A stretch of 64,000 bases of DNA, from NCBI GenBank assembly GCA_944393695.1, contig CALYAY010000001.1:1-64000 (forward strand), given 5' to 3'. Numbering within the stretch: position 1 is the first letter of the stretch; the number at the start of each line of letters is the position of its first letter. The translations under genes and the position numbers were made by a program. Shown here piece by piece: positions 515-32,892 of this stretch. The notes below the pieces were generated by a model. The model saw only the letters and a list, made by a program, of their open reading frames with translations. It did no database searches and was not told where the DNA came from. The DNA is from an uncultured Alphaproteobacteria bacterium. GTDB lineage: Bacteria > Pseudomonadota > Alphaproteobacteria > RF32 > CAG-239.

Positions 515-750
515 TCCCCCTCAACCTCCTCTCCCCCTAAAATCTTAGGGGGAGTTAGAGAGGGTTTCATATTCAAACAAAATAAAACTGTCATCCCTCG
601 TTCAGCGCCAGTCTGAACGTCAAGGGATCTTCAAATTTGTCACCCTCTCATAGATGAGAGGGCCGGGGAGAGCAAATCCTGCCTTACCCCCTCCCTAAAG
701 AGTTAGGGAGGGCAAGGGAGGGTTTGATAACATCTGCCTATCTTCCCCCC
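515..750. repeat. Palindromic repeat cluster 1
   Basis: This gene-free stretch consists of short palindromes that recur elsewhere in the window: a CCCCCTAAAATCTTAGGGGG unit, the CCCTCGTTCAG/CTGAACG unit, a CCCTCTCAT/ATGAGAGGG unit and a second CCCTCCCTAA/TTAGGGAGGG unit. The same order recurs at 32218-32436, and part of it at 30441-30590. The short frames crossing it have no start signals and are not genes. Confidence 0.85.
588..677. repeat. Two-part palindromic module, copy 1
   Basis: About 90 bases made of a GTTCAG/CTGAAC imperfect palindrome enclosed by ATCCCT/AGGGAT, followed by CCCTCTCAT/ATGAGAGGG and a CCGGGGAGAGC tail. Near-identical copies occur at 30496-30586 and 32275-32364, and the first half alone at 55251-55294. 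Confidence 0.85.
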
Positions 751-751
751 C

Positions 752-985
752 TCACTTAATCAAAATCTTAACCCGAACCCCGTACACCGACGCCAACATC
801 AAAAGATGCTTCAAAGAAAACGAACGCCCGTTTTCTATCATCTCAATCCGGCTGACTGAAATTCCGCAGACCTCCGACACTTCGGGCAGACTCAACTCTT
901 TCTTATTACGCAAAAACTTCAAACGAACGCCCATATCCCGTTTGATACAAAAAATCCGATATTTAATTTTCTTTTTGGAAACCAT
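752..985 (-). CDS. Small XRE-type HTH regulator, copy 1
   Basis: A 77-residue basic protein. Residues ~20-65 look like a Cro/CI (XRE) helix-turn-helix: RLKFLRNKKELSLPEVSE, then CGISVSRIEMIENGRSFSL. It therefore probably binds DNA, or possibly the adjacent RNA. The start is ATG 985, because AAAGGAG lies 8 bases upstream; a GTG at 994 falls inside that ribosome-binding site and would make the two paralogs unequal. The second copy (32439-32672) is also 77 residues and differs at only about three positions. The gene follows the terminator of a structured RNA, so its expression probably needs read-through. It is convergent with the flagellin gene. Confidence 0.75.
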   Translation of the reverse strand: MVSKKKIKYRIFCIKRDMGVRLKFLRNKKELSLPEVSEVCGISVSRIEMIENGRSFSLKHLLMLASVYGVRVKILIK

Positions 986-1010
986 AATTCTCACTCCTTT
1001 AATCTGTTAC

Positions 1011-1047
1011 CCAAAACAAAACCTGCCTCACATAATCGCAAAGCAGG
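1011..1047 (-). terminator. Terminator between structured RNA and HTH gene, copy 1
   Basis: On the minus strand CCTGC and GCAGG form a short stem followed by TTTTGTTTT. It ends about 26 bases before the HTH start codon. Confidence 0.65.
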
Positions 1048-1173
1048 CGGAGCTCAAAAGCTGTAAACATACAGTCGTCCCTATTCAATATATTCAGGAC
1101 ACTCCGCCCCATAGCGGAGAATATCATCGTTTAGATGCTTTTGAGACACCACCGGCGACCTCTCGCCGGCAAC
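1011..1173 (-). ncRNA. Candidate structured RNA upstream of HTH gene, copy 1
   Basis: About 160 nt between a consensus-like promoter (1178-1206) and an intrinsic terminator (1011-1047). Helices, in plus coordinates: 1152-1158 with 1163-1169 (7 bp, 4-nt loop); 1053-1061 with 1137-1145 (9 bp), enclosing three hairpins at 1102-1119, 1077-1100 and 1061-1074. The second copy at 32702-32859 keeps these helices with paired base changes. The GGCGGAG in the 1102-1119 hairpin could instead pair with CTCCGCC just before the terminator, which would allow an alternative fold. I do not recognise it as a known RNA family. It could be a small RNA or a leader controlling the HTH gene. Confidence 0.65.
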
Positions 1174-1177
1174 ACCT

Positions 1178-1206
1178 ATGATAAAAGAACATCCCTAAAT
1201 TTGCAA
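1178..1206 (-). promoter_or_regulatory. Sigma-70-type promoter of structured RNA, copy 1
   Basis: On the minus strand -35 TTGCAA (1201-1206), 17-base spacer, -10 TATCAT (1178-1183). The predicted start is near 1173. The second copy has the same TTGCAA and the same 17-base spacing. Confidence 0.7.
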
Positions 1207-32079: not shown

Positions 32080-32436
32080 CTAAAGCCTTAAACCCTAAAC
32101 CTACCCTCTGTCATCCCCGAGCCACCAATTTTATATATCATTCCCGGCTTGACCGGGAATCCAGGTCAAACCAACTATCCCCATATTTCCCCTCCCTGAA
32201 AACTCAGATCCCTCTATATCTCCCTCCCTAAAGTCTTAGGGAGGGGTGGGGAGGGTTTCATATTCAAATAAAAACTGTCATCCCTCGTTCAGCGCCAGTC
32301 TGAACGTCAAGGGATCTTCAAATTTGTCACCCTCTCATAAATGAGAGGGCCGGGGAGAGCAAATACCGCCTTACCCCCTCCCTAAAGAATTAGGGAGGGC
32401 AAGGGAGGGTTTGATAACATCTGCCTATCTTCCCCC
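32080..32436. repeat. Palindromic repeat cluster 3
   Basis: This gene-free stretch holds a CATTCCCGG/CCGGGAAT palindrome (32135-32165), a CCCTCCCTAAA/TTAGGGAGGG unit, the two-part module (32275-32364) and a second CCCTCCCTAA/TTAGGGAGGG unit. From about 32260 to 32436 it is nearly identical to 575-750. Confidence 0.85.
32275..32364. repeat. Two-part palindromic module, copy 3
   Basis: Matches 588-677 with one or two base changes (CATAAATGAG for CATAGATGAG). Confidence 0.85.
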
Positions 32437-32438
32437 CC

Positions 32439-32672
32439 TCACTTAATCAAAATCTTCACCCGAACCCCATACACCGACGCCAACATCAAAAGATGCTTCA
32501 AAGAAAACGAACGCCCGTTTTCTATCATCTCAATATGACAGACTGAAATCCCGCAGGCCTCCGACACTTCAGGCAAACTCAACTCTTTCTTATTACGCAA
32601 AAACTTCAAACGAACACCCATATCCCGTTTGATACAAAAAATCCGATATTTTATTTTCTTTTTGGAAACCAT
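32439..32672 (-). CDS. Small XRE-type HTH regulator, copy 2
   Basis: A 77-residue paralog of the protein at 752-985, differing at a few residues: SEACGISVCHIEM here against SEVCGISVSRIEM. Two changes lie in the presumed recognition-helix region, so the two copies may bind different sites. AAAGGAG lies 9 bases before the ATG. As with copy 1, it follows a terminator-ended structured RNA with its own promoter and faces a flagellin gene. It may regulate DNA targets or its own leader. Confidence 0.75.
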   Translation of the reverse strand: MVSKKKIKYRIFCIKRDMGVRLKFLRNKKELSLPEVSEACGISVCHIEMIENGRSFSLKHLLMLASVYGVRVKILIK

Positions 32673-32694: not shown

Positions 32695-32731
32695 TTAAAA
32701 ACAAAACCTGCTTTACCAAATGCAAAGCAGG
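32695..32731 (-). terminator. Terminator between structured RNA and HTH gene, copy 2
   Basis: CCTGCTTT / AAAGCAGG 8-bp stem followed by TTTTGTTTTT on the minus strand, stronger than in copy 1. Confidence 0.8.
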
Positions 32732-32859
32732 CGGAGCTAACAAACTGTCAAAGTACAGTCGCCGTTATTCAACATATTACCGGCACCCCGCCCCAAACAG
32801 CGGAGATTTTAACCTTTGAGATGTTTGTTAGACACCACCGATGACCTCTCACCGGCAAC
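32702..32859 (-). ncRNA. Candidate structured RNA upstream of HTH gene, copy 2
   Basis: About 158 nt with the same architecture as copy 1: helix 32838-32844 with 32849-32855; long helix 32737-32745 with 32823-32831, where CTAACAAAC pairs with GTTTGTTAG while copy 1 has CTCAAAAGC with GCTTTTGAG; three enclosed hairpins (CTCCGC/GCGGGG, GCCG/CGGC, CTGT/ACAG); then a terminator. Pairing is kept in spite of sequence changes on both strands. The promoter is TTGCAA, 17 bases, TATAAT. Whether it is a free small RNA or a leader is open. Confidence 0.68.
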
Positions 32860-32863
32860 AGAA

Positions 32864-32892
32864 ATTATAACCAACAAAAAAAGAGATTGCAA
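32864..32892 (-). promoter_or_regulatory. Promoter of structured RNA, copy 2
   Basis: On the minus strand -35 TTGCAA (32887-32892), 17-base spacer, perfect -10 TATAAT (32864-32869). The -35 box lies within the pnp terminator stem. Confidence 0.78.

Follow-up and report, generated by a model that had tools for sequence, protein, structure and literature searches.

Terminator-based riboswitch and attenuator leaders are the closest described systems: in these a promoter is followed by a structured, pseudoknot-bearing leader, an intrinsic terminator, and the regulated gene. Among the alphaproteobacterial examples are the SAM-II leaders, and the terminated metZ leader gives the small RNA RZ (PMC9373788). 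T-box leaders reuse one fold in many copies per genome, each with a copy-specific recognition segment and with terminator/antiterminator logic. HK022 put and Bacillus EAR are structured, cis-acting antitermination RNAs that lie at the transcript start, upstream of a terminator. A survey of the human microbiome reported 100 candidate structured RNAs, with HTH-XRE among the genes most often nearby; its text does not name Alphaproteobacteria (PMC8040213).

The leader RNA analysed here was found in a window of 64,000 nt (the whole stretch of DNA studied) from an uncultured alphaproteobacterium. It shares with terminator-based leaders the order of promoter, pseudoknot-bearing structured leader, intrinsic terminator, and gene, and like that of SAM-II metZ its terminated leader is a candidate stable small RNA. 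It differs from them in having no sequence or covariance match, in its tens of copies per genome, in a hypervariable, copy-specific pseudoknot (PK), and in its targets, which are regulators and surface proteins; its ligand is unidentified. Unlike that of the T-box, its variable segment pairs internally and not with a tRNA, and it has neither a T-box sequence nor an Rfam match. With put and EAR it shares the position before a terminator that has to be passed, but no homology was shown and the hypervariable PK has no counterpart there. As a 5' leader with a terminator it is unusual in its copy number and its hypervariable PK. It meets the definition of a 5' cis-regulatory leader (a structured, conserved RNA between a promoter and a same-strand gene start), the dependence of the gene on the RNA being inferred. 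Of the two marks of a transcription attenuator it has the intrinsic terminator between leader and gene; the alternative helix that would exclude this terminator is only a candidate.

Anatomy and covariation of the leader RNA

A preliminary description, made without database searches, had claimed two copies of a structured RNA (1011-1173 and 32702-32859) sharing a promoter, helices and a terminator, with helix sequences that differ between the copies yet stay paired, and had taken this compensatory change as showing a functional RNA of an unrecognised family. Both copies, the quoted helix pairs and the shared elements are present; the strand, left unstated, is the minus strand. Missed were the xre gene directly downstream, the copy-specific PK, and 15 further copies (two of 17 had been seen). 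In both window copies, here A and B, the order is promoter, structured RNA, terminator, ribosome-binding site (RBS), and xre, and the RNA was assigned to the minus strand because promoter, helices, terminator, RBS and gene order fit that strand only. The features are as follows.

1178..1206, minus strand: copy A promoter; -35 TTGCAA, 17-nt spacer, -10 TATCAT
1013..1173, minus strand: copy A leader RNA, ~160 nt; 5' end approximate, inferred from the -10 box
1151..1170, minus strand: copy A P1 hairpin, GCCGGCGA-GAGG-TCGCCGGT; supported by covariation
1138..1145, minus strand: copy A P2 5' strand, CTCAAAAG; the long-range helix given as 9 bp in the preliminary description
1053..1060, minus strand: copy A P2 3' strand, CTTTTGAG; supported by covariation
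1128..1133, minus strand: copy A PK 5' strand, TAAACG, copy-specific
1064..1069, minus strand: copy A PK 3' strand, TGTTTA, within the loop of the P6 hairpin (CTG...CAG)
1102..1119, minus strand: copy A P4 hairpin; 3' strand GGCGGAG at 1102-1108
1102-1108 with 1046-1052, minus strand: copy A candidate antiterminator; GGCGGAG is complementary to CTCCGCC
1076..1101, minus strand: copy A P5 hairpin, whose loop is the most conserved part, GAATATATTGAATA
1021..1049, minus strand: copy A intrinsic terminator hairpin, followed by TTTGTTTT; the stem covaries
about 994-1000, minus strand: copy A RBS, AAGGAG
752..985, minus strand: copy A xre gene, 77 aa, HTH_3
32864..32892, minus strand: copy B promoter, TTGCAA-17-TATAAT
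32698..32859, minus strand: copy B leader RNA
32706..32732, minus strand: copy B intrinsic terminator
32439..32672, minus strand: copy B xre gene, 77 aa

The RNAs of copies A and B measure 161-162 nt and their terminator hairpins end in TTTTGTTTT. Where copy A has the PK TAAACG/TGTTTA, copy B has TCAAAG/CTTTGA. The minimum free energy of the copy A fold is -67.6 kcal/mol, compared with -45.7 +- 4.0 kcal/mol for shuffled sequence (z = -5.4). Behind both xre genes (window 600-740 and 32270-32420) lie REP-like palindromic repeats (CCCTCTCATAGATGAGAGGG... and CCCTCCCTAAAGAGTTAGGGAGGG), dozens of copies of which are dispersed in the genome, some clustered on contig 4.

The conserved fold comprises seven helices: P1, P2, P4, P5, P6, the terminator, and the PK, which joins the strand after P2 to the loop of P6. 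In an alignment of 105 sequences 96.4% of the cells are paired and 44 of the 49 pairs have changed on both sides, values that none of 500 shuffles reached; with one side slid, pairing falls to about 40%. A more distant set of 50 sequences from across families gives 94.6% paired cells and changes on both sides in 48 of 49 pairs. Both alignments were fitted to models and the counts therefore lean towards structure, but the controls (shuffles and slides) were computed on that very alignment. Within the 105 sequences P1 is paired in 98% of cells and P2 in 98.6%, each with all eight pairs changed on both sides. The P6 stem and the PK each covary, so that they are compatible and not alternatives. 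The P5 loop is nearly invariant. The RNA is thus a real, structured, covarying family, for which there are no transcript data. Pairing is kept in the homologs that covariance models retrieved from related genomes and the covariation is strongly positive, so the claim of a functional structured RNA survives and is supported, transcription and function being inferred from sequence.

Distribution and downstream genes

The source genome (1.75 Mb in 38 contigs) carries 17 copies of the leader RNA, 76-98% identical, and 16 xre genes, none with stops. No xre is visible behind two of the RNAs (L053 and L054; L numbers denote copies or loci, G numbers genomes): one lies at a contig end, and in the other the promoter is degenerate and P1 is broken. 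With a first covariance model, built from these 17 copies, the RNA was found in each of the 11 genomes that make up the genus, with as many as 27 copies in one genome, and in 108 of the 152 genomes and 14 of the 16 genera of the family. A second model, built from the 105 sequences, was run on 385 genomes of the class and gave 19 with the RNA; 15 of these belong not to this family but to about ten others, all with genomes of 0.9-2.3 Mb. In a phylum-wide draw of 398 genomes it occurred in only two, both of the same class. Exact matches to a 20-nt core came from records of uncultured Alphaproteobacteria and from Rhodospirillales MAGs.

No family of Rfam 15 reaches its gathering score in the window, so the preliminary view of an unrecognised family stands, and on 13 diverse homologous loci Rfam 15 gave nothing but two tRNAs. 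At permissive thresholds only chance-level matches appeared, the best at the RNA scoring 24.4 bits against a gathering score of 53. The literature searched yielded no description of the element; identity with unnamed candidates of PMC8040213 could not be checked. The leader RNA is absent from Rfam 15 and appears to be an undescribed bacterial RNA element.

Several variants were seen. A longer form of ~215 nt, with an extra hairpin (AGUCG...CGACU) between the PK strand and P4, occurs at L150, L151, L230 and L234, and also at the distant L199 and L203. In two species (L175 and L182) a ~160-nt repeat (TTGGGGAGAATGAGTC...GACCCGCAGACAAC) interrupts the terminator loop of the leader, and related sequence follows the RNA copies L059, L076, L080 and L174.

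In 86 of the 104 copies examined, a promoter with the same hexamers sits 31-34 nt ahead of the RNA start. The gene that follows is a small Xre-like ORF in 43 of the 104 and encodes a secreted Cys-rich protein in 34, the other copies being cut by contig ends, tandem, degenerate or other; where a gene was recognised (77 copies), its start codon lies 16-38 nt past the terminator. In distant families the downstream gene encodes Xre, a beta-barrel outer-membrane protein (OMP_b-brl, Surface_Ag_2), a prepilin-like protein (weak N_methyl), a lipoprotein-like protein, or a secreted Cys-rich protein. Its occurrence before unrelated genes is what would be expected of a regulatory leader, and not of a segment belonging to a single gene. 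The xre copies share 95.4% of their nucleotides overall and 90.7% at third positions and have no stops, which we take as evidence of purifying selection.

The secreted Cys-rich family (CVATxDCATLGYTETxC...) is very large: counted in four genomes (G000, G005, G006 and G010) it gave 64-152 matches per genome, with 64 in the source genome and 131 and 152 in two relatives. In its tested N-terminal part no match exceeded the cut-off of a Pfam family. The leader or its ~215-nt form precedes some members; others have a different promoter in the leader's place, some of them beside leader remnants. Tandem leaders occur at L086 (G121, 1012-1923) and L177 (G001, 471-844); every leader in them has a promoter and a terminator to itself, their PKs differ, and no recognisable gene lies directly behind the first leader of either tandem.

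The copy-specific pseudoknot

The PK is 7-8 bp long and its sequence is almost private to each copy. MAFFT placed its 3' strand out of register (56% paired) and refitting to the model gave 96%; because the refit leans towards the model, an unaligned, per-copy test is the cleaner evidence. In that test the variable strand scores 14.1 against its own P6 loop and 8.3 +- 0.6 against swapped loops (0 of 5000 as high). Two of the 17 copies of the source genome, L047 and the degenerate L054, have lost the PK.

This helix changes faster than its surroundings. Where two copies have xre genes more than 93% identical (29 such pairs), PK identity is 43% (31% by chance) as against 91% at third codon positions, 90% in P1, 74% in P2, and 96% in the P5 loop. 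When all copies are considered, those pairs that agree in at least 95% of their other positions have 46% of PK bases in common (36% by chance) with the PK still paired, while P1, P2, P5 and the terminator agree at 94-100%. The pair L175 and L182, from sister species with alignable flanks, agrees with this: the two are near-identical through P1, P2, P5 and the repeat in the terminator loop and carry unrelated, fully paired PKs.

Some PK sequences recur across several species, for instance TCACTATA/TATAGTGA. Avoidance of cross-pairing was not found among the PK sequences (barcodes) within a genome, which are no more incompatible than column-shuffled ones; shared barcodes are if anything commoner than in the shuffles, because of common descent. 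Copies of one genome that share a PK usually differ in P2 type (L154/L157/L158 in G005; L045/L052; L135/L138; L130/L136; L143/L144; L145/L146), with L037/L039 and L172/L174 as exceptions, and on account of these exceptions a strict two-part code of PK and P2 is not claimed. Two chimeras were seen in the source genome: in L047 the halves of P2, P5 and the PK are all mismatched, in L051 those of P2, and both have an intact xre. They would be natural broken-lock alleles if the inferred role of these helices as a lock is correct. Gene conversion may contribute to the PK pattern.

Proposed attenuation and rival explanations

The anatomy, the family, its covariation, its hypervariability and its association with genes are established. 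Our reading of them, to which we give a probability of about 0.6, is that the RNA represents a new family of cis-regulatory, transcription-attenuating 5' leaders with a copy-specific PK lock; transcription, attenuation, antitermination and trigger are all inferred. Transcription would start at the conserved promoter, and the ~160-nt leader would fold into P1, P2, P4, P5, P6 and the PK. The terminator at its end is predicted to stop most transcripts and to leave the gene off by default; as the anatomy leaves no room for a promoter of the gene's own, expression would need read-through. This would occur when P2 and the PK, which form the putative lock on the switch, are not formed or are opened, so that the 3' strand of P4 can pair with CUCCnCC at the terminator base. 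The near-invariant P5 loop would serve as the recognition site of a shared factor or ligand. With a lock sequence of its own in each copy, we propose that paralogs (xre here, surface-protein families in relatives) could be switched independently.

The 3' strand of P4 and the terminator-base strand show 7-9 nt of complementarity, in distant families too (GACUGGAAG/CUUCCAGUC in L204; GGCGAGAGG/CCUCUCGCC in L200), with more paired cells than in any shuffle. This covariation may be a by-product of that of P4, since both partners resemble each other. Under a nested energy model the forced antiterminator costs 7-18 kcal/mol, and it overlaps only about three of the 11 terminator pairs, so that eight of 11 can remain in some copies. 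Given this cost, and a terminator that can stay mostly intact, simple two-state attenuation has not been demonstrated, nor has antitermination through this pairing by itself; a protein, a ligand or a trans RNA would be needed. Also against the main reading, no recognisable gene immediately follows certain copies that are solitary or tandem (L086, L177), and there is no RNA-seq.

Neutral drift is the nearest rival, and we lean slightly against it: the PK would merely have to pair, compensatory changes would accumulate, and gene conversion would homogenise the rest of the cassette, without diversifying selection or a barcode role. The lack of mutual incompatibility among within-genome barcodes speaks for it, as do the chimeras L047 and L051, which show recombination shuffling halves, and conversion could make xre look less diverged than it is. 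Against it stand the 43% PK identity in the 29 xre-matched pairs (random 31%), set beside 91% at third positions and 74% in P2, and the unrelated, fully paired PKs of the otherwise near-identical L175 and L182. It is also possible that the terminated ~160-nt RNA is itself the product, a trans-acting sRNA that finds partners specific to each copy, either other RNAs or its own nascent leader, through its variable strand or loop, with expression of the downstream gene only secondary. The strong terminator ahead of the gene, the stand-alone tandem copies L086 and L177, the recurrence of certain PK sequences in several species, and a PK turnover faster than that of third codon positions, as befits recognition, favour this view; however, a perfect partner for each variable strand already lies inside the same RNA, no external partner was found (without a systematic search), and the leader-gene arrangement is kept across many genera with different genes. 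A bolder version, in which the PK is an address and terminated leaders act back in trans, each leader answering only to its own or a matched RNA, we consider unlikely.

A strict riboswitch, with the P5 internal loop as the core of a ligand-binding aptamer, cannot be excluded, ligand binding being inferred: a fold that covaries except for a single highly conserved loop, the terminator and the competing pairings would suit it, but the downstream genes have no common metabolic theme and such strong divergence of a single helix is not usual among riboswitch copies of one genome. Least credible is a non-autonomous mobile cassette, or an RNA and Xre pair such as a toxin-antitoxin or phage-derived immunity unit. 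In its favour are the 17 dispersed copies flanked by REP-like repeats and the frequency of Xre proteins in such units; against it, no match was found in phage or plasmid records and none in viral contigs with the 20-nt core, relatives carry surface or secreted proteins instead of Xre, and no toxin-like partner is present. The criterion for a type III toxin-antitoxin system (tandem RNA repeats and a ToxN-like gene) is not met, the downstream genes encoding HTH_3 or secreted and outer-membrane proteins.

If the attenuating leader is indeed a new class, it would be a regulatory RNA of broad distribution: most genomes of one uncultured alphaproteobacterial family have it, and it occurs in several other small-genome families. 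The divergence of RNA helices does not normally outpace that of synonymous sites, and the surprising part is that one helix, the PK, turns over much faster than its surroundings while staying paired; this needs either selection for distinct paralog sequences or an unusual exchange mechanism. Should the address reading, doubtful as it is, prove true, these bacteria would have an RNA-barcoded system that switches dozens of paralogous regulator and surface-protein genes one by one. The placement of the leader before large, variable families of surface proteins suggests a role in the choice of surface by host-associated bacteria.
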